Source: a virus. Taken from it: a DNA stretch of 30,687 nucleotides. Location of the stretch: the IMG/VR virus record IMGVR_UViG_3300042389_000221, positions 1 through 30,687 of that record, one strand, 5' to 3'. The position numbers and the translations under genes were made by a program. How positions within the stretch are numbered: position 1 is the first letter of the stretch; every line of letters starts with the position of its first letter. This document shows, piece by piece, positions 9,441 to 27,146 of this stretch. The notes below the pieces were generated by a model. That model saw nothing but the letters and a program-made list of their open reading frames with translations, was not told the origin of the DNA and did not search any database.

Positions 9441-12017
9441 ATGGCTGTTGTAGTCCCCATTATCAGCACATTTGATGCAAAGGGTGTCACACGCGCAATC
9501 AAGGATTTTCAAAAACTTGATGGTGCTGGCGAGAAAAGCGCATCAGTATTACTGAACACAAACAAAGCAGTGAACACACTTGGAAAGAACTTTGCAAAGT
9601 TTGGTGGTATTGCTGCAGGTGTTGCTGGCGTGGTTGGTGGTTCTCTTGTCAAGGCTGCATATGAATCACAGAAGGTGATGCGCCAGACGCAAGCAATTGT
9701 GACTGCAACAGGTGGTGCTGCTGGTTTGACTGCAAAGCAGGTCAGTGATTTGGCTGAATCATTATCTGTGAAAACAGGTGTTGATGATGAAGCAATCCAG
9801 ACCAGCATGAATATGTTGCTGACATTCAAAGCAGTACGCAATGAAGCAGGCAAAGGAAACGACATCTTCAATCGTGCATCAATGGTCATGCTTGATTTGG
9901 CGAATGTGTTTGGGTCATCTGATGCTGCAGCAAAGATGTTAGGCAAAGCCCTGTCAAATCCCATCAAGGGTGTGACTGCGTTACAGCGTGCAGGTGTTGA
10001 TTTCACTGACCAACAGAAGCAACAAATCAAGACATTGGTTCAGTCAGGCAAAGTGCTTGATGCACAGAAGTTGATTCTGGCTGAAGTTGAATCACAGGTT
10101 GGTGGAACTGCTGCAGCAGGTGCAACAGGGTTTGACCGTATGCGCGTCGCATTGGGTAACGCTGCAGAAGATTTAGGTGGCGTGTTGATTCCCTACGTGG
10201 AACGATTCGCAAACTTTGTCATTGACAAAGTTGTTCCTGTTCTTGAACAGTTCTCAATGATTCTTGGTGAACGTGGTGTGGCTGGTGCAATCAATTATCT
10301 GATTGGGTCAGTTATTCGTGGTGTCTGGAATATGGGCAACATGGGTAAGACAATCACAATCATCATTGGTTTGTTTGGCGCGTTGAAGATTGCAGTGATG
10401 ACTTTCACTGCTGTTCAAACAGGATTGACTATTGCAGCGCAGGTGACCACTGGTGCATTGAATGCACAGATTGTTGCACTGAATGCAACAAAGGTTGCCA
10501 TGCTTGCAGCAGGTGGTGTGACTGCATTGCTGACTGTGGCTGCATCTTTGTACGCCATCTACGCTGCAACAAAATCAAAAGCAGTAACAAGCACGCGTGA
10601 CTTTTCGGAAGCCTTGTTTCAAGAAGGTGAAGCACAGAAGAACGCAGTGGTTGAACTTGTCAAATCACAAAGGGCTTTTGAGTATCTAGCAAAGATTCTC
10701 AATATGTCTGGTCAAGGGCTTGGTGCATTTGAAGAATATTTGAACAAGGGTTCTGGCGCATTGGCACAGTTGAAAGGCAGAATTGATGCTGCAGCAAAAG
10801 CCAATCGTGACCTAATCATCTTCAATCAAAAGGGTCAAGGTTTCACAATCCCTGCCAAAGATGTCAAGGTGTATCAGAAAGCACTTGAAGATTTGATGTC
10901 TAAGCAGAAAGAATACAAAGACCTGCAAAAAGTTTTGAAAGGTCTTGGTATTGACCCTGACCCAAAGCCTTTGACCACGTTGAACACCACAGTTGAAACT
11001 GCAGCAGAAAAGTTTGCAAAGTTCAGCAATGCAGCAAAGACAGTAACCAGTGACCAGAAGAATCTGCGTGACGCTTTGAAGAACACAGCATCAGCGCAGA
11101 AGTCTTTGCAGACAGCGACAGACAATGTTGCAACTGCACAAGCCAAACTGAATCAGATTGCAAAGGGTTATGGCGTAGGGTCTAAGGAAGCGAACAGCGC
11201 ACAGGAAGAACTGAACAAAGCGAACAGAGATGCAACAAAGGCTGGTTTTGATTTGACCAAAGCCAACTATGCAGTCAGTGACGCTGAAGAAGCACTGCGC
11301 AGGGCGCGTCTACGTGGCAATCCAAGAGAGATAACAGAAGCAGAAATTGCTTTAGGTGAAGCAGTCATTGCACAGACTGAAGCACAAAACAATGTCAAGA
11401 CATCAACTGATGCTGTGACTGATGCACAAACCAAACTGAATGAAACAATCAATGGTGCTTCTACTTCTAGTGAGACATACAAGACAGCATTGACTGAACT
11501 TGAAGCAGCACAGGCTGCACAACTTGAAGCAATTGACAAGGTGCGTGAAGCCAAAGAGCGTGAACTAGAAACCACGCGCAATCTGGCTAAGGCTGAAATC
11601 ATCTTGCGTAAAGCCAAAGGGAAATTGACCAAGAAGCAGAAAGCAGCAGCAGACAAACTTCTTGCTGAACTGAACACACCTGTCACTGTGAATGTGCCAA
11701 CACCAACAACTGTTTCTTCTGTGTCATCTTCTTCTGTTGGTGCAGGGTTTGATTTCTCTGGCTTTGATTTCTCAGGAATCAGTGTTGGTGGTCTTGCCAC
11801 ACTGGCTCAGGGTGGAATCGTGACCAAGCCCACGTTCAGTCTGATAGGTGAAGGTGGTGAACCTGAAGCAGTGATTCCATTGTCCAAGATGGGCATGATG
11901 GGTGGTGACACAATCATCAATGTGACCGTCACCAGTGCAGACCCCAACGCAGTTGTTGATGCGTTGCGTAGATACCAGCGTCAGAATGGCGCGTTGCCAC
12001 TAAGGGTGCAGGGATAA
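9441..12017 (+). CDS. Tape measure protein
   Basis: At 858 residues this is the longest gene in the window, in the standard place after the chaperone. The N-terminus has a FAKFGGIAAGVAGVVGG hydrophobic segment followed by a region typical of phage tail tape measures (KTGVDDEAIQTSMNMLLTFK, then GKALSNPIKGVTALQRAGVDF). Membrane-type helices lie at about 300-375 and a long Ala/Lys/Glu-rich coiled coil at about 545-740, then a Ser/Gly linker and a small C-terminal domain ending in DALRRYQRQNGALPLRVQG. From the usual relation of about 0.15 nm per residue, a tail near 130 nm is inferred. The stop overlaps the next start (TAATG). Confidence 0.95.
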   Translation: MAVVVPIISTFDAKGVTRAIKDFQKLDGAGEKSASVLLNTNKAVNTLGKNFAKFGGIAAGVAGVVGGSLVKAAYESQKVMRQTQAIVTATGGAAGLTAKQVSDLAESLSVKTGVDDEAIQTSMNMLLTFKAVRNEAGKGNDIFNRASMVMLDLANVFGSSDAAAKMLGKALSNPIKGVTALQRAGVDFTDQQKQQIKTLVQSGKVLDAQKLILAEVESQVGGTAAAGATGFDRMRVALGNAAEDLGGVLIPYVERFANFVIDKVVPVLEQFSMILGERGVAGAINYLIGSVIRGVWNMGNMGKTITIIIGLFGALKIAVMTFTAVQTGLTIAAQVTTGALNAQIVALNATKVAMLAAGGVTALLTVAASLYAIYAATKSKAVTSTRDFSEALFQEGEAQKNAVVELVKSQRAFEYLAKILNMSGQGLGAFEEYLNKGSGALAQLKGRIDAAAKANRDLIIFNQKGQGFTIPAKDVKVYQKALEDLMSKQKEYKDLQKVLKGLGIDPDPKPLTTLNTTVETAAEKFAKFSNAAKTVTSDQKNLRDALKNTASAQKSLQTATDNVATAQAKLNQIAKGYGVGSKEANSAQEELNKANRDATKAGFDLTKANYAVSDAEEALRRARLRGNPREITEAEIALGEAVIAQTEAQNNVKTSTDAVTDAQTKLNETINGASTSSETYKTALTELEAAQAAQLEAIDKVREAKERELETTRNLAKAEIILRKAKGKLTKKQKAAADKLLAELNTPVTVNVPTPTTVSSVSSSSVGAGFDFSGFDFSGISVGGLATLAQGGIVTKPTFSLIGEGGEPEAVIPLSKMGMMGGDTIINVTVTSADPNAVVDALRRYQRQNGALPLRVQG

Positions 12018-18170: not shown

Positions 18171-18242
18171 CTGAAACCCTTGCGCCATAAGGCTTTGGGG
18201 AATAGTTGCATCTCCCCTGATAAATGGTGCTAATCTGTCTGC
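18171..18242 (+). promoter_or_regulatory. Leaderless promoter with upstream dyad element (copy 1)
   Basis: The dyad AAACCCTTG-N6-AAGG (18174-18192, extended by CTTTGG) lies upstream of TTGCAT (-35, 18206-18211). A 19-base spacer and a TGC-extended -10 TAATCT (18231-18236) follow. The ATG of the next gene begins six bases later, where transcription should start. The dyad centre is 60 bases upstream of that ATG. The same layout recurs at 23120 and 26865. Confidence 0.75.
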
Positions 18243-18644
18243 ATGACATCACGCAAGCACAACACACTTCTTCCACGCACAATCATCTTTGTTGCAACCA
18301 AAGCAGGCATGGAAATAGTCGCAAAAGACAATGCACCACAGCGTTGGGTCAAGTCCATCAGCAAGTCTGGTGAATTGACATATACAACAGACCCACGCAT
18401 GGCACGCCGATTCAAAACAAAAGAAGCAGCAATTGCTGTTTGCAACAACTACGCATCAGCAATCGTGATTGAACTTTATGTTGATGAACTGCGCTGGACA
18501 GACCCTGCTGATGATTGTGGTTTCACTTACATGGGCTACTACAACGGCAAGACTGGTTTGAACTACAACCTTGGAACAGGTGAACCTGTGCAACCACCAG
18601 CGAACTACACGCGCATGATGGAAATCTTGAATGGTGGTGAGTGA
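18243..18644 (+). CDS. Hypothetical protein from a leaderless message
   Basis: This 133-residue protein has no recognised family. The N-terminal half has alternating strands and helix (RTIIFVATKAGMEIVAKDNAPQRWVKSIS, then DPRMARRFKTKEAAIAVCNNY), resembling small phage proteins that read a value and adjust it. The second half has DCGFTYMGYYNGKTGLNY. No signal peptide or membrane segment. The ATG is six bases after a -10 box, with no Shine-Dalgarno sequence. It is the first gene of a three-gene unit ending at a strong terminator. Confidence 0.75.
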   Translation: MTSRKHNTLLPRTIIFVATKAGMEIVAKDNAPQRWVKSISKSGELTYTTDPRMARRFKTKEAAIAVCNNYASAIVIELYVDELRWTDPADDCGFTYMGYYNGKTGLNYNLGTGEPVQPPANYTRMMEILNGGE

Positions 18645-18838
18645 TGAACACACCATTGACACACCAACTGCAATCAGGAACAGTCACCTATCTTGACCCA
18701 CAGATGCAACAGCAATCAGTGCAGGGTGATTTCTACATTCAGCACAACAACATTGTGGTCTGTCGCAAAGTACGTGGGCGCAATATGTTTGCACTGTGTC
18801 ACATTGATTCAGTGCTGGACTTCACACCAGCCGAATAG
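18644..18838 (+). CDS. Hypothetical small protein
   Basis: This 64-residue protein is coupled to the preceding stop (TGATG), with GGTGGTGAG as a likely ribosome-binding site. It is probably beta-rich (GTVTYLDPQ, then GDFYIQHNNIVVCRKV and MFALCHIDSVLDF), like a small SH3/OB-type fold. The function is not recognised. An in-frame GTG three bases earlier is possible but is less well placed. Confidence 0.65.
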   Translation: MNTPLTHQLQSGTVTYLDPQMQQQSVQGDFYIQHNNIVVCRKVRGRNMFALCHIDSVLDFTPAE

Positions 18839-18853
18839 AGAACAGCAGAAGAT

Positions 18854-19099
18854 ATGAACAAGACAGGCTTCACCAATCAATCCAAAGCCAAATGCAAAAC
18901 CTGTGCAACAGTCATTGCTGCTGGAACAGGAATCTACGACAACGGCAGCACATACTGCACTGAAACAACCATCTATCAAGATGGTGATGACACGTGGTTC
19001 TTGTGCTTGCCTGCATACAACTTACGCACGAACAGCAATCATCAAGACATTGATGCTGCATATCTTGCAGAGAAAAAGCGTCGCACTTCACGACAATAG
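18854..19099 (+). CDS. Hypothetical small zinc-binding-type protein
   Basis: This 81-residue protein has a CxxC (residues 15-18, KCKTCATVIAAGTGIYDNG) followed by further Cys at about 35 and 51, which suggests a zinc-ribbon-like fold. The end is basic (EKKRRTSRQ). It is the last plus-strand gene before the terminator hairpin and faces the convergent minus-strand genes. Small CxxC proteins of this sort are common in actinophage accessory regions, but their roles are unknown. Confidence 0.7.
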   Translation: MNKTGFTNQSKAKCKTCATVIAAGTGIYDNGSTYCTETTIYQDGDDTWFLCLPAYNLRTNSNHQDIDAAYLAEKKRRTSRQ

Positions 19100-19104
19100 A
19101 AAAA

Positions 19105-19146
19105 GCCCCACAGCAGGCAGGAAACCAAACAAGCCTGCTGTGGGGA
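19105..19146. terminator. Bidirectional terminator hairpin between convergent operons
   Basis: CCCCACAGCAGGC (19106-19118) and GCCTGCTGTGGGG (19133-19145) form a perfect 13-bp stem with a 14-base loop. A run of five A residues (19100-19104) precedes it, giving a U-tract for the minus-strand transcript. For the plus strand the downstream ATCTTT is weaker. It separates the plus-strand unit ending at 19099 and the minus-strand unit ending at 19152. Confidence 0.9.
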
Positions 19147-19151
19147 CATCT

Positions 19152-19409
19152 TTACAGTGACCACCATTCCCTGCCCCACATGGCAGATGGGTGGCAACCA
19201 AGCCTGATGGCGATTCTGTCGGCGCGTGAATAGTGAATCGTTGCTGAACCTTCAGATGCACGCCACTTCATAAGTGTGCCTACATTGACACCAAGCAGGT
19301 CTGCAGCGTCTCGCACAGGTAGGTCATTGACCACGCGCAGAATTGGTGTTGTTGATAGGCGTGCTGTCCGTTCACGCTTCCAGACATCTTCAACACCAAC
19401 TTCTGCCAT
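19152..19409 (-). CDS. Small DNA-binding protein, helix-turn-helix (excisionase-like)
   Basis: This 85-residue protein has a helix-turn-helix at about 31-50 (PVRDAADLLGVNVGTLMKWR), similar to MerR/excisionase-like small regulators. A C-terminal motif follows (residues 60-85, YSRADRIAIRLGCHPSAMWGREWW). The C-terminal motif recurs in the protein at 29218, so it appears to be a shared module. It is translated just after the Cro-like gene, 3 bases downstream. There is no integrase in the window, so it may regulate transcription rather than excision. Confidence 0.75.
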   Translation of the reverse strand: MAEVGVEDVWKRERTARLSTTPILRVVNDLPVRDAADLLGVNVGTLMKWRASEGSATIHYSRADRIAIRLGCHPSAMWGREWWSL

Positions 19410-19412
19410 GCG

Positions 19413-19670
19413 TCAACTTTCTGTGTGCTGCCAATAAGCAATCGCCATAATCACTGAACCTTGTGTTGCACCTGTTGCTTCTTCAATTGCTGCAAGATGG
19501 TTCACTGATGGCAGGGTCTTTCCTTGTTCCCATGAACTAACCAATGGCTGTGTCACGTTGATGCGCTTTGATAGTTCACGCTGGCTGATACCTGCATTCA
19601 TGCGTGCAGCAAGCAACACTGTTGCACATTGCTTCAACTGTTCTGCTGGCACTTCTTGTTTCTTTGGCAT
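19413..19670 (-). CDS. Cro/CI-type helix-turn-helix repressor
   Basis: This 85-residue protein has an HTH_3 domain at about residues 11-75: LKQCATVLLAARMNAGISQ, RELSKRINVTQPLVSSWEQGK and a third helix LPSVNHLAAIEEATG. It is likely a DNA-binding repressor or Cro-like protein. The start is the ATG with AGGACAG upstream. An upstream in-frame extension of 68 residues would run back through the transglycosylase gene and is not used. It lies in a minus-strand operon. Its target may be the dyads upstream of the leaderless promoters or sites in the 20173-20387 region. That is inference. Confidence 0.85.
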   Translation of the reverse strand: MPKKQEVPAEQLKQCATVLLAARMNAGISQRELSKRINVTQPLVSSWEQGKTLPSVNHLAAIEEATGATQGSVIMAIAYWQHTES

Positions 19671-19695
19671 GGTTTGCTGTCCTGTCCTAGAAGGG

Positions 19696-20172
19696 TTACT
19701 TGTTACTGATAGTAGCAGTGCTTGTTGCTTTCCAATGAGAACTGCCACCATTGTTCCAAAGATATGCAGCAACTGCGATATTGCATGAAGGCTTCTGAAG
19801 TATAAGAACATCTGATGATTTGCAGAGTGCTTTGGTAACAGACTTCCACGTTGAATTGATTTGAAGCAACCCAATGTCGTAAGACTTCACAGCACTGCAC
19901 TTTCTGTATGTTCGTGCTGGTGACAACTTGCAATTCTTGTGCGATTTGTTCTTGTGATAGTTCCAGCCGATAGCACGTGGTTGGCAACGACTTTCACGAA
20001 ACATGATTGGCGCGAACACTCTGACAGGCAGACCAGCCTTGCGCAGTGCGTCATGCCATTCAGGGCAGGGCAACCCTTTGATGGGTGCTGCGTCTGCGTC
20101 ACGCAGCGAGAAGGTGAGAAGTAGAAGATTGATGATGAATGCAATGATGATGAATCGGAATGTTCGTGTCAT
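19696..20172 (-). CDS. Secreted lysozyme-like transglycosylase
   Basis: This 158-residue protein has an N-terminal signal sequence (residues 1-29, hydrophobic FIIIAFIINLLLLTF, then ADAA cleavage region). The lysozyme fold shows catalytic Glu60 in PIMFRESRC, YDIGLLQIN (98-106) and the NNGG-x-HW end (141-146). Six cysteines at 36, 63, 81, 92, 117 and 130 suggest disulfides, as expected for an exported enzyme. It would cut peptidoglycan glycan strands. It sits beside repressor-like genes on the minus strand rather than in the lysis cassette. AGGAAAGG upstream is a strong ribosome-binding site. Confidence 0.85.
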   Translation of the reverse strand: MTRTFRFIIIAFIINLLLLTFSLRDADAAPIKGLPCPEWHDALRKAGLPVRVFAPIMFRESRCQPRAIGWNYHKNKSHKNCKLSPARTYRKCSAVKSYDIGLLQINSTWKSVTKALCKSSDVLILQKPSCNIAVAAYLWNNGGSSHWKATSTATISNK

Positions 20173-20300
20173 GGTTGTGCCTTTCCTGCCACGCTCAATG
20201 GGTGTTTCAGGGTTGCTGGCTGTCTATGTACCCATCTGGCGTTTGCGCTTGTCTGAAGCCCATACAGCGTTGCTGGTAGTGCGCTGGCAGATTGTGTATG

Positions 20301-20315
20301 ACCACCTGTGGTGGT
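20301..20315. repeat. 15-base dyad in the minus-strand intergenic region
   Basis: ACCACC and GGTGGT are perfect arms around TGT. It lies in the 215-base space between the replication-initiator gene and the transglycosylase gene and could be an operator for the latter. Nothing else clear is seen in this space: no convincing -35/-10 pair could be fixed on the minus strand. Confidence 0.4.
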
Positions 20316-20387
20316 TGAGTAGGGGACAGGTTCAGGTTCTACCCTAGACAGACCCTGTGCCATTTCCGTGTCACCTGTCTGAAATCC

Positions 20388-21152
20388 TTACTGTGTGCGA
20401 CATTCGCACCAGCGTGATTTGTGTTGCTGTTCATCAGCGTCAAAGTCAACAATGAAACCAGCACCACCACACACAACACAATCAGCATCACCAATGACAT
20501 CTGGCATGATGCGCTTCACCAACGCAGGCTGAGTCGCAATCAACTTGTTCAACTGCACATCAAGCATTGTTGCGCTAGGCACACTCAACTGCATCAACGC
20601 TGTCGTGACCTGCTGTTCAGTCCAGCCAGACTTCAATGCACCATTGATGATTGCCAGCAGTGAATGCCATGCACCCTTTCCTGTTGGTGTCTTTCCACCT
20701 GTTCGTTCTTTGTATGCAGTCCACCATTGTTCAGCAATTGACTGCGCAGCAGTAGGTTCTTGACTTTGTTTCACACTGACTATGGTTTCTGTGTCGTTTT
20801 TGTCCCTACCCCTTGTGGCGATTTTGTCGCTAGGTAGGGACATTTCTGACGCTACCTGTGGAACAGTTATCACTTGATAGTGATTGCTTGTCAGGTCACC
20901 ATTTGCGCTCACACGTTGACGCTTGTTGACAGCACCAATTGCAATCAGTTCTGTCAATGCTCTATCAATTGACTTGACTGTGCAGTTGCATTTGGCTGCA
21001 AGTGTTGCGCGTGATGGGTGGCATTCACCTGTGTCTTTGTCTGCATATCGTTGCAACGTGGCGTACAGTCGCACAGCAGTTGCTGTGATGTCTGCGTACA
21101 AGACCCATTCAGGAATGATGCTGAAGTAGTTATCTGCTGTGATGCGTTTCAT
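20388..21152 (-). CDS. Replication initiator-like protein (winged helix plus C-terminal zinc motif)
   Basis: This 254-residue protein has three parts. The first (1-95) is a winged helix-turn-helix of the type found in phage initiator and DnaD-like proteins (IPEWVLYADITATAVRLYATLQRYADKDTGECHPSRATLA, then CTVKSIDRALTELIAIGAV). The second (about 135-215) is helical, resembling a DnaD-like domain. The third is a Cys motif (C225, C228, C249, C251) typical of a zinc site. In the absence of polymerase or helicase genes, it probably loads the host machinery. The start is the ATG after GGTAGGA. An upstream in-frame ATG adds 23 unlikely residues. Confidence 0.75.
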   Translation of the reverse strand: MKRITADNYFSIIPEWVLYADITATAVRLYATLQRYADKDTGECHPSRATLAAKCNCTVKSIDRALTELIAIGAVNKRQRVSANGDLTSNHYQVITVPQVASEMSLPSDKIATRGRDKNDTETIVSVKQSQEPTAAQSIAEQWWTAYKERTGGKTPTGKGAWHSLLAIINGALKSGWTEQQVTTALMQLSVPSATMLDVQLNKLIATQPALVKRIMPDVIGDADCVVCGGAGFIVDFDADEQQHKSRWCECRTQ

Positions 21153-21237
21153 TGTTCCTACCGTTGACAGTTGATGCGACAGCCAGAGATACAATGACAT
21201 CTGGCTTCTTGTCCCCCACAAGGATTCATCAAGATAG

Positions 21238-21275
21238 TGCCTGTGTGCATCTCTATGTGAGAACGCACACAGGCA
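21238..21275. repeat. 11-bp inverted repeat in the divergent promoter region
   Basis: TGCCTGTGTGC (21238-21248) and GCACACAGGCA (21265-21275) are perfect arms, with an inner TCTC/GAGA pairing. It lies between the divergent initiator-like gene (21152) and the exonuclease gene (21335), in a 182-base spacer. It could be an operator, a transcript hairpin, or part of a replication origin. A smaller inverted repeat (GCCAGA/TCTGGC) lies at about 21182-21205. Confidence 0.75.
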
Positions 21276-21334
21276 TTGTCATTTATCAGCAACAGTTCTC
21301 AAAGGCTGACACACCCATCTGACAAACTGCCAGC

Positions 21335-22255
21335 ATGAAAACAATTCAGAAACCAGAACACGGCAGCCTTCAATGGTTAGAGACACGACACAAGCACAAC
21401 GGTAGAACAATCGTTGGTGCTTCAGAAGTGTCAGCAATCATGGGTGTCAATCCATACAAAACAATTACAGACCTAGCCATTGAGAAACTGCAGCCACCAA
21501 TGGTGCGCGACAAGAATGACGCAATGAAGCGTGGCATCTTTCTTGAACAGGGATTGCTTGACTACGCCAGCGCAGAACTTGGTTGCACAATCGTGACACC
21601 AGCAGAAATGTATTTGAATGACAGAATCATCAGCACACTTGATGGTGTCACCAATCAGGCTTCACGATTGTTTGAAGCAAAAACCACAACAGGGTGGGTA
21701 CAAGGTGACGCGCCATTGCCAGAATGGTTTTGGCAAGCACAAGCGCAGATGTATTGCACTGGCTGCACCACAGTCACATTCATTGTTCTTGACCGTCAAC
21801 TACGCATCACAATGTTTGACATCACACGTGATGATGAATCAATTGCAGTGATGGTTGAAAAAGTTGAAGCGTTCTGCACAGCGATTGACAATGAATCCTT
21901 GCCTGATGACAGCCCATTGACAGCAGAGCAGGTCACTGCACTGCACCCACAACCAGATGCAGGCGAGATTGAACTAGGCGCAGCAGGGCTGGAACTACTG
22001 CAACGCTGGCAATCAGCAAAAGAAATGCTGAAGCATTACGAACAAGAAGAACAATCACTGAAAGATGCGCTTGCAAATCTTCTGCGCAACCATGACGCAG
22101 GCACGATTGACGGTCAAAAGGTTGTCACATTCAAATCACAGAACACCACACGCTTTGACCAGAAAGCATTTGGGGAAGCACACCCTGACCTAGTCAAGCA
22201 GTATCAGAAAGCGTCATCATTCAGGGTGCTGCGACCAGTGAAGGGTGCAATCTGA
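21335..22255 (+). CDS. YqaJ-type recombination exonuclease
   Basis: This 306-residue nuclease of the lambda-exonuclease fold (YqaJ family) would chew 5' ends for recombination. Catalytic residues are visible: Glu71 in RGIFLEQGLLDYA, Asp103 in ISTLDG, and Glu114 and Lys116 in LFEAKTT. VGASEVSAIMG (about 27-37) is also typical. It is paired with the ERF annealing gene, which starts at its stop codon (TGATG). No Shine-Dalgarno sequence is seen at the ATG, and a possible -10 CAAACT lies six bases upstream. Confidence 0.93.
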   Translation: MKTIQKPEHGSLQWLETRHKHNGRTIVGASEVSAIMGVNPYKTITDLAIEKLQPPMVRDKNDAMKRGIFLEQGLLDYASAELGCTIVTPAEMYLNDRIISTLDGVTNQASRLFEAKTTTGWVQGDAPLPEWFWQAQAQMYCTGCTTVTFIVLDRQLRITMFDITRDDESIAVMVEKVEAFCTAIDNESLPDDSPLTAEQVTALHPQPDAGEIELGAAGLELLQRWQSAKEMLKHYEQEEQSLKDALANLLRNHDAGTIDGQKVVTFKSQNTTRFDQKAFGEAHPDLVKQYQKASSFRVLRPVKGAI

Positions 22256-22983
22256 TGTCTGAAATATTCAAAGCATTGAATGAAGTGATGAAAGAAGTTG
22301 GTGCTGTTCGCAAGAACGAACGCAACACACATCAGAACTTCAACTTTCGTGGCATTGATTCAGTCATCAATGCTGTGTCACCAGCGTTCAGGAAGCATGG
22401 CATCTTCTGCACACCATCAGTCATCAGCAGTGAATATGAATCTGTGCAGGTGGGACAGAACAGAACAGTGATGGGTCATGCGCGTGTGATGGTCACGTAC
22501 ACATTCCATGCAACAGATGGAACATCAGTGCAAGCAACTGTCAGTGCAGAATCAATGGACAGTGGAGACAAAGCAACAGCAAAAGCAATGAGTGTTGCTT
22601 ATCGCACAGCACTACTGCAGACACTGTGCCTACCAACAGATGACGCAGACCCTGATGCAGACACATATGAACGCTCACCAGTTACTGCACCAGAACGCAA
22701 ACAAGAAACAGTACGAACACCACGCGCACCACAAACAAACAACAACAGCAATCAACAACAGCAACGCAAAGCACCACTGCGAAGTGATGCACAAGCAAAC
22801 CTGATGCGCTCACTACTTGAACAATGTGAAGTTGATGAACAACTTGTGATTGATTCATTCAAAGTGCGCATTGATGAAGCAACAGTTCCACAAGCAAAAA
22901 CAATCATTGATGCGTTACTGCGTTTGAAGAAGAATGAAATTGAAATTGAAATCAATGCAGATGGCACACCAATCATTCGTTGA
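22255..22983 (+). CDS. erf: ERF-family single-strand annealing protein
   Basis: This 242-residue recombinase anneals complementary strands. The N-terminal domain (1-140) matches ERF proteins: VRKNERNTHQNFNFRGIDSVINAVSPAFRKHGI, then VMGHARVMVTYTFHATDGTS and GDKATAKAMSVAYRTALLQTLCLPTDDADPD. A polar Gln/Asn/Pro-rich linker (about 155-175) separates it from a C-terminal helical domain that often binds partner proteins. It overlaps the exonuclease gene by one base, a conserved pairing in phages. Confidence 0.92.
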   Translation: MSEIFKALNEVMKEVGAVRKNERNTHQNFNFRGIDSVINAVSPAFRKHGIFCTPSVISSEYESVQVGQNRTVMGHARVMVTYTFHATDGTSVQATVSAESMDSGDKATAKAMSVAYRTALLQTLCLPTDDADPDADTYERSPVTAPERKQETVRTPRAPQTNNNSNQQQQRKAPLRSDAQANLMRSLLEQCEVDEQLVIDSFKVRIDEATVPQAKTIIDALLRLKKNEIEIEINADGTPIIR

Positions 22984-23152
22984 TGGTGACTTGTTCAAGG
23001 TTGCGAATCAACGTGGTGTGTTCGTGTTCAGGGGCTGGAATGCTGATGGGTCTGTCAGGTGTTTTGGTGGCACTAGGGGCAGGGAAAGATGGCGCAGTTT
23101 CCCTGTGTCAGCAGGGCTGAAACCCTTGCAAAATAAGGACTTGAAGAAATGA
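22961..23152 (+). CDS. Small protein overlapping the ERF end, unknown
   Basis: This 63-residue ORF overlaps the ERF gene by 23 bases in another frame. The sequence DGDLFKVANQRGVFVFRGWNADGSVRCFGGTRGRERWRSF looks like a real small beta protein of a kind seen in actinophage accessory regions. The start is uncertain: in-frame ATGs at 22934, 22955 and 22961 all lie within ERF coding sequence, and no clear ribosome-binding site picks one. Its 3' end contains the dyad of the next promoter. Confidence 0.6.
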   Translation: MAHQSFVDGDLFKVANQRGVFVFRGWNADGSVRCFGGTRGRERWRSFPVSAGLKPLQNKDLKK

Positions 23153-23189
23153 CTTGCAAGCCATGAAAAGTTGTGCTTATAATCCCTGT
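23117..23189 (+). promoter_or_regulatory. Leaderless promoter with upstream dyad element (copy 2)
   Basis: AAACCCTTG-N6-AAGG (23120-23138) is followed by TTGCAA (-35, 23154-23159), an 18-base spacer and a perfect TATAAT (23178-23183). The ATG of the next gene is six bases on. The dyad centre is 61 bases upstream of the ATG. The preceding CTGAAACCCTTGC run is the same as in copy 1. The dyad is inside the end of the small coding region at 22961-23152. Confidence 0.75.
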
Positions 23190-23525
23190 ATGGAAACAAC
23201 ATCAATCAAGTCAGAAAAAAGTTACCCCACTTACCGTGACCCCAACGGCGTTCTGTGCGCATTCAAAGGTGTCACTGAAGGTTCACGTGGCAAGCGTTTG
23301 GTGGCATACATCAAGCGTGATGACCGTGAATGGATTGACGGTCGCACAACAGTTCCTGCTGGTGAATGGGTCATCTTTGGTAACTCAGTAAATGTTGATG
23401 CTATGGACAGGCGCGTGCGCTGGCGACAGAACAACGGCTGGTGCGTGCGATACTGCTGGATTGACATTGACAACCCAATGACCCTGAAGCAAATCGCAGC
23501 CTTCAACAACATCATCAACCAATAA
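23190..23525 (+). CDS. Hypothetical protein from a leaderless message (MET-start family)
   Basis: This 111-residue protein begins METTSIKS. The start is set by TATAAT six bases upstream, although an in-frame ATG exists further up. The body has an alternating beta pattern with many charged residues (LVAYIKRDDREWIDGRTTVPAGEWVIFGN, then VRWRQNNGWCVRYCWIDIDNPM), a soluble small-domain look. There is no family that I recognise. It shares only its start region with the other leaderless genes at 25166, 26934 and 27188. Confidence 0.75.
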   Translation: METTSIKSEKSYPTYRDPNGVLCAFKGVTEGSRGKRLVAYIKRDDREWIDGRTTVPAGEWVIFGNSVNVDAMDRRVRWRQNNGWCVRYCWIDIDNPMTLKQIAAFNNIINQ

Positions 23526-23555
23526 CCAACAACAATCAACAAAGGAAACCAAGTC

Positions 23556-24050
23556 ATGAAAAAGTCAGAGATTGAAACAATCATCACAGCAACACCAGAA
23601 GCAATCTTCACAGAGAACACAAAGTTTGGTGACAACTTCATCATTGTGGGCTTTGCACATCATCACAAGAACAAATATTCAAACGGCACGATTGTTGCAC
23701 AGGTCAAGCGTGTGTATTTCTACAAGGGTGAAGTCAGCGTGTCAGACACAGTTCAACGCAAGTCACTGCGCACAATCGTTGATACACAGTGGCTATCACT
23801 GAAGGAATATGAGACATACTCAATCCAGAAGGAACAGCGTCAACAGAACGCAGCGCAGTATCGCAAGCAACAACAAACACTGATGAGCGACATCAAGCCT
23901 GAACTGTATGAAGCATTGAAGGCTTGTGGCATTGACAACAAAGCATGGAACTTTGGTGACCCCACGTTCAAGATTGAAGTTGATGTAGACAATGCAGAAC
24001 AACTGTTGAAGGTTCTGCGAGCATTCGCAGCACAGCAGGTAACAGCATGA
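23556..24050 (+). CDS. Hypothetical protein
   Basis: This 164-residue protein is preceded by the recurring AAAGGAAACCAA ribosome-binding element at 23541-23552. The N-terminal about 80 residues are beta-rich (NFIIVGFAHHHKNKYSNGTIVAQVKRVYFYKGEV). The middle is a Gln-rich helix (SIQKEQRQQNAAQYRKQQQTLM) and the C-terminus is an alpha/beta region. No catalytic motif is seen. It overlaps the winged-helix gene by ATGA, suggesting a common transcript. Confidence 0.75.
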   Translation: MKKSEIETIITATPEAIFTENTKFGDNFIIVGFAHHHKNKYSNGTIVAQVKRVYFYKGEVSVSDTVQRKSLRTIVDTQWLSLKEYETYSIQKEQRQQNAAQYRKQQQTLMSDIKPELYEALKACGIDNKAWNFGDPTFKIEVDVDNAEQLLKVLRAFAAQQVTA

Positions 24051-24544
24051 GCGACCAGCCAGACCTGTTCAACATCACTGATGATGATGCGCTGCCATAC
24101 AACGGAACAGCAGGTCATGTTGACCAGCCAGCCAGCACTGCACGCGCACACACAGAAGCCGATTCAGGCACAGCCAAAGCAAGAGCATCAGCAGTGCTGA
24201 AACTTCTGTATGAACACCCAATCGGATTGACCTATCAGCAAGTAGGAATGAACCTAAATCTGCATCACGGTCAATCATCTGGTGCGCTTTCAACACTGCA
24301 CAAAGCAGGTCTTGTGTTTATGACTTTTGAACGCAGGAACAAGTGTCAGGTTTATGTTCATGCTGCATACCGTCACGATTATCAAGACCACGAACGGATT
24401 GACACACCTGCACAAACCAAAGCAGGCAAACGCAAAGATGACATGGAACGCCTACTGCAAGCAGTCATCATTGGTATTGATATGGGCAGGGTGCGTGACA
24501 GCGTTGTTGAAGCAATTGTGAAAGAACTGCGCAACACTGACTGA
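24047..24544 (+). CDS. Winged helix-turn-helix protein
   Basis: This 165-residue protein has an acidic disordered start (1-40) and a winged helix at about 43-104 (KARASAVLKLLYEHPIGLTYQQVGMNLNLHHGQSSGALSTLHKAGLVFM, with the wing at ERRNKCQVYV). The C-terminal part is helical. It probably binds DNA and is one of four candidate regulators in the window. The domain is typical of MarR/PadR-type or phage-specific winged helices, but no specific partner can be named. Confidence 0.75.
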   Translation: MSDQPDLFNITDDDALPYNGTAGHVDQPASTARAHTEADSGTAKARASAVLKLLYEHPIGLTYQQVGMNLNLHHGQSSGALSTLHKAGLVFMTFERRNKCQVYVHAAYRHDYQDHERIDTPAQTKAGKRKDDMERLLQAVIIGIDMGRVRDSVVEAIVKELRNTD

Positions 24545-24557
24545 TACCATCAGCCAT

Positions 24558-25010
24558 GTGACAGCAGAAGAACAACCACGCAAAGGTGACTGCCCATGTG
24601 GCTGTGGTCTTTTTGGCAACATCACCAATCAACGCCACGTGCGTGGTTGTGTCTGCAATCGTTGCAGGGGCGCACGCAATCGTCGTAAGGGTCTTGCAAA
24701 GCAGCGCACAGCACGCAAGCAACTTGGTGTTGCACCATCACACAAGTTTGGTGACGGCAATGAAGAACGCTGGCAATCAATGTTCGCCAATGAAGTCAAA
24801 GCAGGGAAACAGATACAGCCTGCTGTCACTGCATGGTTACGAATTGAACAGCAGGTGCTGTCAAACAATCCTGACTTTGGTGGCAGGCACAAACCCACGC
24901 GTGCTGTCTTGATGCCTGATGGCTGGTCTGATGGGCTAGTGATGGTGCGTCTGTCCGTGTGGGCTGAAGTGATTGCGCCAGCCTTGGAAGCCTTCTATGG
25001 GGAAGCCTGA
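24558..25010 (+). CDS. Putative Holliday-junction resolvase/endonuclease with N-terminal Cys-rich region
   Basis: This 150-residue protein has a GTG start. The Cys-rich N-terminus (CPCGCG at 12-17 and CVCNRC at 31-36) is followed by RGARNRRKGLAKQRTARKQLG. The next region contains EERW (69-72) and EVKAG (79-83), the latter resembling the ExK of PD-(D/E)XK nucleases, then DGWSDGLVMVRL. This overall order recalls actinophage resolvase-like proteins. It lies among recombination genes, which fits. Function is inferred from motif order, not from an alignment. Confidence 0.65.
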   Translation: MTAEEQPRKGDCPCGCGLFGNITNQRHVRGCVCNRCRGARNRRKGLAKQRTARKQLGVAPSHKFGDGNEERWQSMFANEVKAGKQIQPAVTAWLRIEQQVLSNNPDFGGRHKPTRAVLMPDGWSDGLVMVRLSVWAEVIAPALEAFYGEA

Positions 25011-25025
25011 CAGCCTGCCAGAGCG

Positions 25026-25106
25026 CACAGGAAGCCCTGTGAGCGTTCGTGGGGGTTTGCAGGGGCTGGATTAGCCCAAGCCCTATCAGCAAGCCTTCTA
25101 GGGGCT
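25026..25106. other. Three consecutive stem-loops in the gap before the leaderless gene at 25166
   Basis: CACAGG/CCTGTG (25026-25041, 4-base loop), GGGCT/AGCCC (25063-25077) and AGCC/GGCT (25092-25106) follow one another within a 155-base gap. GGGGCTGGA occurs twice (25062 and 25101). The gap has no ORF. One stem may be a terminator for the upstream genes, but no T-run follows any of them. It could be a small RNA. Confidence 0.4.
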
Positions 25107-25153
25107 GGAAAAAAATCTGCCCAAAATGCGCATGAAGGGTCATCAGATGTGCT

Positions 25154-25165
25154 TATAATGTCTGT
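25154..25165 (+). promoter_or_regulatory. Leaderless promoter without the dyad (-10 TATAAT)
   Basis: The TATAAT at 25154-25159 is preceded by TGTGCT as in the promoter at 23178, and the ATG begins six bases later. No good -35 is seen, and the AAACCCTTG dyad is absent from the expected position. The stem-loop AGCC/GGCT (25092-25106) occupies the corresponding place. Confidence 0.7.
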
Positions 25166-25363
25166 ATGGAAACCAACACCACCTTCACCAACAAGAACAC
25201 AACCTTCAAGATTGAACACATCAAAGAACACACAAGTGAAGTCATCACCAGCCTTGGTTGGTCACACTTTGCAGCAGTGTCACGTGTGAAGGGTCGCAAG
25301 ACCTACTACGCAAACCTGTTGATTGTTGATGGCGCAATTGTTCACAGCAGCGTGGTGATGTGA
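25166..25363 (+). CDS. Hypothetical small protein (MET-start family)
   Basis: This 65-residue protein has a leaderless start beginning METNTTF. It is predicted alpha/beta (FKIEHIKEHTSEVITSLGWSHFAAVSRVKGRKTYYANLLIVDGAIVHSSVVM). There is no recognised family and no membrane segment. It is coupled to the next gene by TGATG. Its opening bases ATGGAAACCAA are the same as those of 26934 and 27188. Confidence 0.75.
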   Translation: METNTTFTNKNTTFKIEHIKEHTSEVITSLGWSHFAAVSRVKGRKTYYANLLIVDGAIVHSSVVM

Positions 25364-25665
25364 TGCAAGCATCAACCAACACCAGAGCAAAACTCACTGC
25401 AAAGAAAATCAAAGTGGGCGACATGATTGGTCTGATGCACAACTTCATTGGCTGCACAACAGACAACGAATACATCTTTGACACTGATTCGCCATTAGCA
25501 CCTGCCATTCGTGGGTGGGTTGATTATGTTTGTGAATACAAAACAATCATTGAAGTATCAGCGACCAAGCAAGGTAGTCGCACAGTCACAATCGTGACCT
25601 GTGAAGATGGTTCAACATACGAACTGAACTCAAGAAACGCCTATGAAGCAAAGGTTGCGCACTAA
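25363..25665 (+). CDS. Hypothetical small protein
   Basis: This 100-residue protein is coupled to the preceding gene (TGATG). The sequence has KKIKVGDMIGLMHNFIGCTT, a GxTI-type beta segment, then ATKQGSRTVTIVTCEDGSTYEL, consistent with a small beta-barrel (SH3- or Tudor-like) domain. No enzymatic motif is seen. An in-frame GTG three bases upstream is a less likely start. It ends one base into the next gene. Confidence 0.7.
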   Translation: MQASTNTRAKLTAKKIKVGDMIGLMHNFIGCTTDNEYIFDTDSPLAPAIRGWVDYVCEYKTIIEVSATKQGSRTVTIVTCEDGSTYELNSRNAYEAKVAH

Positions 25666-25862
25666 TGACCAAGCCACACACATCAATCAACCAACTGATT
25701 CTTGACAACAAAGACTTGTCAATGTTTTCAATCGTGCGCGTCAACCAAGGCTGGCAAGTCACTGATTCACGTGACGGATTCTGCAACCACCCACGCATCT
25801 ACAAAACAAAGCGTGCAGCACAACTTGCAATCTGCGCTGTCGTAAAGCAGGCAATGCAATGA
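25665..25862 (+). CDS. Hypothetical small protein
   Basis: This 65-residue protein is coupled to the preceding gene by TAATG and to the methyltransferase by ATGA. The sequence reads like a compact domain: IVRVNQGWQVTDSRDGFCNHPRIYKTKRAAQLAICAVVK, with a strand-turn-strand start and a helical end, similar to the small proteins that follow the replication genes in other phages. Its job is unknown. Confidence 0.7.
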   Translation: MTKPHTSINQLILDNKDLSMFSIVRVNQGWQVTDSRDGFCNHPRIYKTKRAAQLAICAVVKQAMQ

Positions 25863-26896
25863 CCAACAATAAGCCAGTCACATTTGGCAGCCTGTTCAGT
25901 GGCGCAGGTGGCTTTGACATGGGACTTGAAAGCGCAGGCATGACCTGCAAGTTCCAAGTTGAATGGGATTCACACTGTCAACAGATACTGCAATACCACT
26001 GGCGCGAGATTCCCAAATGGGAAAATGTGCAGAAAGTCAATGGTGCTGAACTTCCACCTGTTGAAGTAATCGCATGGGGTTCACCATGTCAAGACCTGTC
26101 AACTTCTGGTCAGCGTGCAGGGCTTGATGGCACAAAGTCATCAATGTTTTTTGAAGGAATCAGAATCATCAAAGAAATGCGAGAAGCAACACATGGAAAA
26201 TATCCAGTTGTCTCTATTTGGGAGAATGTATCAGGGGCAATCACTAGCAACAATGGTGATGACTTTCAGACAGTTCTACGGGAGATGGCAGAAGCAGGGT
26301 GTCATCACATTGAATGGAGAGTGCTTGACGCACAGTGGTTCGGAATCCCACAGCGCAGAAGAAGAATCTTTGTGGTCGCTGTGTGGGATTCTGCAACCAT
26401 CAGAACAAGTGGAGAACAAATACTTGCTGCAACCAGCGCACGTGCAAAAGATTTTGACAAAAGCAGAAGTGTTCAACAGGGAGATTCCTTACGAACTGAA
26501 AGCGATACTGGAACAAGCAGCAGAACAAGACAAGTAATCACATTCCTATCAGGTGCAATGATTCGTTTGGGTGGTTGTGTGTGGCACAACATTTCACCAA
26601 CACTTACAGCAGGACTTGAAAAGAACGGTGACAACATGATTTATCTGACTGACACCAAAGACGGCAAGCCCATCATCAGAAGATTCACTGAGATTGAATG
26701 CGAACGCTTGATGGGCTGGAATGATGACCACACACGCTTCAGGGCTGATGGAACAGAGACACGGTCAAGCCAGCGATACAAGATGATTGGCAATGGTGTT
26801 GCTGCCCCTGTGGCTAAGTGGGTTGGTGAACGCGTGATTGGTTTGCTACGTGGGCAAGACCAGCAAACCCTTGTAGGGCAAGGCTTTGGTGATTGA
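25859..26896 (+). CDS. DNA (cytosine-5) methyltransferase
   Basis: This 345-residue enzyme methylates cytosine in DNA using S-adenosylmethionine. Motifs are complete: I FSGAGGFD (13-20), IV GSPCQD with catalytic Cys77, VI ENV (122-124), VIII QRRRRIFVV (165-173) and X IGNGVAAPVAKW (about 310-321). The target recognition part (about 220-280) has GGCVWHNISPTLTAG. No restriction endonuclease gene is present beside it, so it probably protects the phage from host restriction or marks DNA rather than being part of a restriction pair. It overlaps the previous gene by ATGA. Confidence 0.95.
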   Translation: MTNNKPVTFGSLFSGAGGFDMGLESAGMTCKFQVEWDSHCQQILQYHWREIPKWENVQKVNGAELPPVEVIAWGSPCQDLSTSGQRAGLDGTKSSMFFEGIRIIKEMREATHGKYPVVSIWENVSGAITSNNGDDFQTVLREMAEAGCHHIEWRVLDAQWFGIPQRRRRIFVVAVWDSATIRTSGEQILAATSARAKDFDKSRSVQQGDSLRTESDTGTSSRTRQVITFLSGAMIRLGGCVWHNISPTLTAGLEKNGDNMIYLTDTKDGKPIIRRFTEIECERLMGWNDDHTRFRADGTETRSSQRYKMIGNGVAAPVAKWVGERVIGLLRGQDQQTLVGQGFGD

Positions 26897-26933
26897 CTTG
26901 CAATTAGATATCAGAACCCCTAATCTGATGGGT
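26865..26933 (+). promoter_or_regulatory. Leaderless promoter with upstream dyad element (copy 3)
   Basis: AAACCCTTG-N6-AAGGCTTTGG (26865-26889) matches copy 1 even in the extension. It is followed by TTGCAA (26898-26903), a 17-base spacer and TAATCT (26921-26926), and the ATG is seven bases on. The dyad centre is 60 bases upstream of the ATG. The dyad lies inside the end of the methyltransferase gene. Confidence 0.75.
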
Positions 26934-27146
26934 ATGGAAACCAACCACACACACATCACATCAGAAGTTGAACTTGCAGGTTGCCCTGCTGACGGTGGCA
27001 AGTGGGTCATCTACTGCGACCACTTTGACGCAGACAACAACCCAATCGGCACAGGCTTGTTGCAAGACACCAACAAGAAGCGTCTTGCACAGTGGCGCAA
27101 TCACAGCGACCAGTGGTGTCCACTTTGTCAGGAAGAAGGCAACTGA
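26934..27146 (+). CDS. Hypothetical small protein with Cys pair (MET-start family)
   Basis: This 70-residue protein begins METNHTH. It has DGGKWVIYCDHFDADNNPIGTGLLQDTNKKRLAQWRNHSDQWCPLCQEEG, with CPLC near the end and Cys at about 18 and 30, perhaps a zinc site. The leaderless start is set by TAATCT seven bases upstream. No family is recognised. Confidence 0.75.
   Translation: METNHTHITSEVELAGCPADGGKWVIYCDHFDADNNPIGTGLLQDTNKKRLAQWRNHSDQWCPLCQEEGN

Follow-up and report, generated by a model that had tools for sequence, protein, structure and literature searches.

Introduction

The 30,687-base virus contig IMGVR_UViG_3300042389_000221 of IMG/VR (the whole stretch analysed, called the window here) carries the same short dyad in front of three small genes in different parts of the genome, which raises the question of what this element does and which protein, if any, reads it. 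From the letters of the window, an original prediction had described it as a 19-base element at a fixed -60 position before three leaderless promoters, with near-dyad symmetry, and had proposed a class I-like activator site, a phage regulon and four candidate binding proteins. Comparing the window with related phages, we find a 23-base-pair (bp) dyad that recurs at a fixed distance from leaderless promoters, and we put the probability at about two in three that it is the operator of a dimeric, most likely phage-encoded protein conferring class I-type activation on a small leaderless regulon. In plain terms, the mirrored 23-base site very probably serves as the docking point for a paired protein which switches accessory genes on together.

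Results

The dyad and its distance to the promoter

The motif AAACCCTTG-N6-AAGG occurs exactly at 18174-18192, 23120-23138 and 26865-26883, just as predicted, all three on the plus strand and with no fourth copy in the window, and it arose in 0 of 100 dinucleotide-preserving shuffles. Allowing two mismatches added nothing beyond copies 1 and 3 read in reverse, which appear because the element is a dyad. With a profile built from the relatives, under which the three copies obtain the scores given in Table 1, the next independent site of the window reaches 6.3 bits and the best maximum over 30 shuffles 14.7 bits. The relatives also define the full unit, which comprises 23 bp of the form AAA(C)CCTTR-N5-YAAGG(G)TTT, i.e., two facing 9-bp half-sites with five free central bases. 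The predicted symmetry holds in this longer form, although the right arm of copy 2 is degenerate (AAGGACTT), and many copies in the relatives come closer to a perfect dyad than the window copies do, e.g., AAACCCTTACGCCACAAGGGTTT.

Relatives were gathered via the exonuclease and two of the genes behind the dyads, yielding nine viral contigs with identities of 77-92% and another two, and further ones were added from a scan for the palindrome. They are metagenomic contigs throughout, mostly incomplete, and related sequences among them are not independent; counts from collection scans are lower bounds. Each of the 13 related records searched contains the dyad, and together they provide 26 promoter-linked copies. 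When only offsets already seen in a wider look that permitted 30-115 nucleotides (nt) are counted, 24 of these 26 copies have 56-58 nt between the start of the dyad and the -10 hexamer, and the remaining two have 77-78 nt, a shift of 20 bp that corresponds to about two helical turns. The original prediction had made its case depend on presence and alignment of the element in related genomes, and both are what the relatives display. In the window, the distances are 57, 58 and 56 nt for copies 1, 2 and 3. One of the positions at which the dyad recurs (slot R, see below) shows both spacings, 58 nt in the records L014, L016 and L063 and 77-78 nt in L010 and L012, and L011 holds one further copy at 78 nt. 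Even distant records can retain the distance: L021, whose RecE exonuclease is 39% identical, has one copy at 57 nt and a second at 55-57 nt, and L038, with a guanine-cytosine (GC) content of 64%, has copies at 56 nt and, counted by hand, 57 nt.

The predicted distances in the window stand as well, since the centre of the 19-bp element lies 60-61 nt before the ATG and TTGCAT or TTGCAA starts 13-15 nt past the element and is followed by a -10 box in all three cases; with the 23-bp unit, the centre moves to -58/-59 from the ATG. The window dyads lie wholly upstream of the -35 box and end about 9-11 nt before it, as in class I promoters. In all 26 copies, 6-7 nt separate the -10 box from the start codon, and transcripts should therefore begin at the start codon, which would make the dyad-linked genes leaderless. 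Leaderless bacterial genes, which are commonest in Actinobacteria, are by convention recognised from a TAnnnT motif some 10-12 nt ahead of the start codon (PMC3160421).

Copies 2 and 3 do lie in coding sequence, at the C-terminal ends of a 72-amino-acid (aa) open reading frame (ORF) and of the methyltransferase gene, and the selection that had been proposed for them is supported for the position of copy 2 (slot B), where the left arm is conserved to 100% and the right arm to 91%, compared with averages of 76% for the upstream third codon positions of the overlapping gene and 64-67% for the bases between the arms and the stretch leading to the promoter, the five central bases having 64%.

This arrangement suggests a mechanism in which a dimeric protein, most likely encoded by the phage, would bind the 23-bp dyad centred at -59 from the predicted +1/ATG, or at -79, two helical turns further out. 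Sitting on a fixed face of the helix, the dimer would most likely help RNA polymerase in a class I manner at promoters that carry weak -35 boxes (TTGCA/TTGTG). The regulon would consist of leaderless units, one per slot, with as many as four conserved slots in a genome, and the accessory genes of all slots would be switched together.

The main rival is a repressor acting from upstream, with the dyad as a repressor or silencer operator that holds the accessory genes off in the lysogen or in early infection, possibly together with a divergent regulator operon. Cro-like and helix-turn-helix (HTH) genes are indeed found in the divergent minus-strand operon adjoining slot R, and phage operators often repeat genome-wide, e.g., the MrpR sites of SPbeta (PMC10516654). 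However, simple repressors usually overlap the promoter, whereas the promoter-linked copies all stand upstream of the -35 box at a fixed distance and none covers the -35 or -10 box, and a displacement by two turns that leaves everything else in place is what activators typically show; repression is therefore the less likely direction of control by a clear measure.

Half-sites rather than hairpins

Within the half-site AAA[C>GT]CCTTR, the two arms change independently, position 4 being unpaired in 14 of 25 distinct copies and position 9 in 7 of 25, and no compensating pair at position 4 was found in these 25 copies. Were the element to act as RNA or as a cruciform, a change in either arm should bring a compensating one in the opposite arm, but the arms are unmatched at position 4. 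RNA folding predictions gave the copies of the window and its relatives no clear advantage over shuffles (z -0.7 to -1.6), terminator calling returned none at the dyads, and the element matched no known RNA family. Moreover, the genes flanking slot R are transcribed divergently, so that terminating the cargo strand there would serve no purpose. Independent half-sites, a slot between divergent genes and a poor RNA fold together argue strongly for the operator of a dimeric protein over a hairpin terminator.

An intrinsic terminator or insulator, stopping the upstream transcript right before the next promoter, would fit the dyads of slots A, B and C, which lie at or just past the 3' ends of the upstream genes, and in a large number of unrelated, AT-rich phages a T run and a TTGACA promoter come after the palindrome, which gives it the look of a terminator. 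Yet the stable stem with a T run that characterises an intrinsic terminator is not seen in this phage family, in which no T run follows the dyad, and termination does not call for constant phasing relative to the promoter that follows, so that we regard this function as improbable.

Conserved slots and variable cargo

The dyads occupy four conserved slots in which the upstream genes are kept and the first genes behind the dyads, here called cargo, are small and mostly unrelated between genomes. Slot A follows the last tail gene, slot B follows Erf and the 72-aa ORF, slot C follows the methyltransferase or the counterpart of the gene at 24558, and slot R lies opposite the regulator operon. The dyad of slot R is recognisable in L009-L012, L014, L016 and L063. 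The dyad thereby separates fixed genome slots from fast-changing cargo, and the 23-bp site with its strict spacing predicts which accessory genes are co-expressed, making the regulon a concrete, testable case in an uncultivated phage group.

Pairs of related cargo genes are few. In one of them, a 100% identical gene stands in slot B of L013 (2518) and in slot C of L014 (15550); the identity begins at ATGGAAACC, and dyad and promoter each remain typical of their own slot. The point of exchange would therefore be the start region, and cargo is probably swapped there by homologous recombination. The same turnover and the same shared gene might be explained by a site-specific recombination site of the tyrosine recombinase type, with inverted arms and a 5-7 bp overlap, but the crossover in the L013/L014 pair does not lie in the core, no integrase was found among the larger window proteins scanned, and a fixed distance to the -10 box would be unneeded, leaving such a site very improbable.

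As a separate observation, the unrelated proteins starting behind the predicted leaderless promoters at 23190, 25166, 26934 and 27188 open with the same bases, ATGGAAACC or ATGGAAACA (MET..), with or without a dyad, and this opening is also found in relatives and in L047. The shared first bases may serve leaderless initiation or mark a recombination boundary.

The phage and its candidate binding proteins

The contig encodes a siphovirus set (terminase, portal, protease, major head protein, tape measure and tail fibre) as well as a RecE-like exonuclease, an Erf-like annealing protein, a DnaD/O-like replication protein and a DNA methyltransferase. No near DNA relative was found in the INPHARED collection. 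The nearest isolate by terminase comparison is Pontimonas phage phiPsal1 (38%), and the winged-helix protein at 24047 has relatives in Microbacterium and Arthrobacter phages, on account of which the host is probably an actinobacterium. The dyad, with up to three mismatches, was not found in phiPsal1 or in the inspected part of Microbacterium phage Gingerbug.

Among the four proteins originally put forward as binders, the small HTH protein (19152) and the winged helix (24047) gained support, the Cro-like protein stays possible, and for the Myb-like gene (28270) all that speaks is its presence in relatives. The HTH protein is strongly kept in the family, and in L063 it is 82% identical while the exonuclease is down to 65%. 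Its family recurs in L020, L021, L047 and L072 (E 1e-39 to 1e-12) and, as a weak match, in L038 (E 0.003), these being the dyad-bearing records of actinophage type; it was found in 0 of 17 other palindrome-bearing records tested, and no homologue was found among sequenced phage isolates. Of the distant records tested, L021 and L072 alone had the winged helix, and the palindrome records tested did not support it as the reader in all palindrome phages. Structure searches of these two candidates returned general HTH and MarR-like folds only. We infer the following order of candidates: the 85-aa HTH protein first, the MarR-like winged helix second and a host protein third. Beside the HTH regulators, the minus-strand operon also encodes a lytic-transglycosylase-like protein (19696-20172; weak Pfam SLT match).

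Several observations weigh against an activator acting from a phased site and against these binders. Other distant relatives deviate in spacing, with 69 nt in L072 and 72-73 nt in L047, whose third copy lies at about 82 nt (hand count); the two spacings of the family are in helical phase and the 69 nt of L072 roughly fit, but L047 is out of phase. About half of the family's ATGGAAA leaderless promoters have no dyad, which is therefore dispensable for some such promoters; in the window, the starts at 25166 and 27188 have leaderless ATGGAAAC promoters without it. L019 encodes a homologue of the HTH protein (31%) yet has no dyad in 49.7 kb, kinship between the phages weakens the argument from co-occurrence, and an identical palindrome exists in unrelated phages that lack both candidate proteins.

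Table 1 Positions of dyads, predicted promoters, cargo genes and candidate binding proteins in the window.
Feature	Position	Strand	Remarks
Dyad copy 1 (slot A), AAACCCTTGCGCCATAAGGCTTT	18174..18196	+	Profile score 33.8 bits
Dyad copy 2 (slot B), AAACCCTTGCAAAATAAGGACTT	23120..23142	+	Within 3' end of 72-aa ORF 22934-23152; 25.0 bits
Dyad copy 3 (slot C), AAACCCTTGTAGGGCAAGGCTTT	26865..26887	+	Within 3' end of methyltransferase gene 25859-26896; 29.7 bits
Slot R dyad, degenerate remnant, AATGTCGCACACAGTAAGGATTT	20382..20404	-	End of replication gene; profile score 2.3 bits only
Promoter 1 (TTGCAT, 19 nt, TAATCT)	18206..18236	+	6 nt to ATG 18243
Promoter 2 (TTGCAA, 18 nt, TATAAT)	23154..23183	+	6 nt to ATG 23190
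Promoter 3 (TTGCAA, 17 nt, TAATCT)	26898..26926	+	7 nt to ATG 26934
Cargo gene 1, 133 aa, predicted leaderless start	18243..18644	+	No PHROGs match
Cargo gene 2, 111 aa, predicted leaderless start	23190..23525	+	No PHROGs match; relative in L018 only
Cargo gene 3, 70 aa, predicted leaderless start	26934..27146	+	
HTH protein, 85 aa, first candidate binder	19152..19409	-	94-98% identical in close relatives, 82% in L063
MarR-like winged helix, second candidate	24047..24544	+	Invariant HHG..SG.LS.LHK segment
Cro/XRE-type HTH protein, further candidate	19413..19670	-	Possible

Discussion

Comparison with known systems

Class I activator sites of the CRP type in E. coli have centres at -61.5 or -82.5, alternative positions being whole helical turns upstream. 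The phage element resembles them as a dimer dyad upstream of the -35 box with its centre near -60 and alternative positions whole turns further out, and it differs in its sequence, in its centres at -59/-79, in the leaderless genes and in forming a phage regulon. The class I-like position and the regulon that had been proposed are thus supported by the relatives, and activation is what we infer from the sequence. In P2-like phages, late genes are controlled by the zinc-binding activators Ogr/Delta, whose dyad precedes several promoters by about 55-60 bp. This is likewise a phage regulon defined by a dyad at such a distance, but the genes considered here are small accessory genes and not late genes, and no Ogr-like protein matched among the window proteins scanned, some small ORFs being outside that scan.

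Two further systems share the repetition of a symmetric site within one phage. The ESAS of cluster K mycobacteriophages contains an inverted repeat within a promoter-containing motif of 46-47 bp, followed by the ribosome-site-like SAS (PMC11373665). As in our family, an inverted repeat and a SigA-like promoter recur before several actinophage genes, whereas the dyad described here lies fully upstream of the promoter and the genes are predicted to be leaderless. The SPBRE of phage SPbeta is a repressor site bound by the tyrosine-recombinase-like protein MrpR (PMC10516654), and it is similar as an operator repeated at many promoters of a single phage; unlike there, a tyrosine-recombinase-like protein was not seen in our contig. 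SPbeta itself also carries a copy of the palindrome upstream of yonX, annotated as a stem-loop in its record.

A wider palindrome in unrelated replicons

A stricter form of the dyad, CTGAAACCCTT-N7-AAGGNTTTG, was found in at least 62 viral stretches, unrelated phages included, compared with one match for a control palindrome of the same composition and none for a shape-keeping control. The palindrome-bearing phages span 29-64% GC, and nine cellular genomes belonging to several phyla contain a still stricter form, each with one or two copies of the core palindrome. Furthermore, the ninth base of the left half-site is a purine in all 46 cases that had not been selected for this feature. In AT-rich phages, looser forms stand 30, 40, 50 or 61 nt before TTGACW boxes, figures that are uncorrected for relatedness and include many terminator-like cases, as the relaxed scan mixes in ordinary terminators. 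The excess over controls, the cellular genomes, the constant purine and the periodic distances are the grounds for a tentative idea, which we think doubtful, namely that CTGAAACCCTTR-N5-YAAGGGTTTGCGG could be one regulatory word of mobile elements across several phyla that is read by one conserved protein. Actinobacterial phages would then use it as a phased upstream activating site, and other phages and plasmids as the central piece of replication regions; if one protein did read it, the palindrome would be a control element of mobile DNA across phyla that has so far gone unnamed. No reader protein common to the palindrome carriers was found, and a literature search for the palindrome sequence gave nothing relevant. 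An integrase neighbourhood of the wider palindrome was likewise unsupported, the ten larger neighbours scanned including a phosphoesterase, DnaB, a lysozyme, a terminase and a VapE-like protein and no integrase.

In Streptococcus phage CHPC1152 and Burkholderia phage BcepF1, the palindrome adjoins primase-region genes, and in a Priestia plasmid it stands beside repL. That the dyad of our family is chiefly a replication-origin element, near promoters by chance, would agree with such palindromes beside replication genes of unrelated replicons, often with flanking repeats, and with the one family slot near a replication gene, but is hardly credible given that a 30-kb genome can hold as many as three or four copies, all of them promoter-linked with constant spacing, and that three of the four slots lie away from the replication gene.

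Some observations on individual carriers may be added. The small Streptococcus thermophilus plasmid pJ34 (L082, 264-550) and CHPC1152, a phage of the same host (L240, 2393-2700), have in common a repeat-rich region with two or three palindromes beside replication genes. In L086, L090, L093 and L025, which are unrelated replicons, the palindrome is nested in element-specific outer inverted repeats and appears iteron-like. L020 contains three dyads within 180 bases (10600-10790), two of which flank a DnaA-box-like TTATCCACA; this region is perhaps an origin. Finally, the AT-rich records L126, L143, L152, L174, L190 and L199 have many TTGACA promoters with an AAGAC(G/A)TCTT dyad between the -35 and -10 boxes, a probable operator of another regulon.

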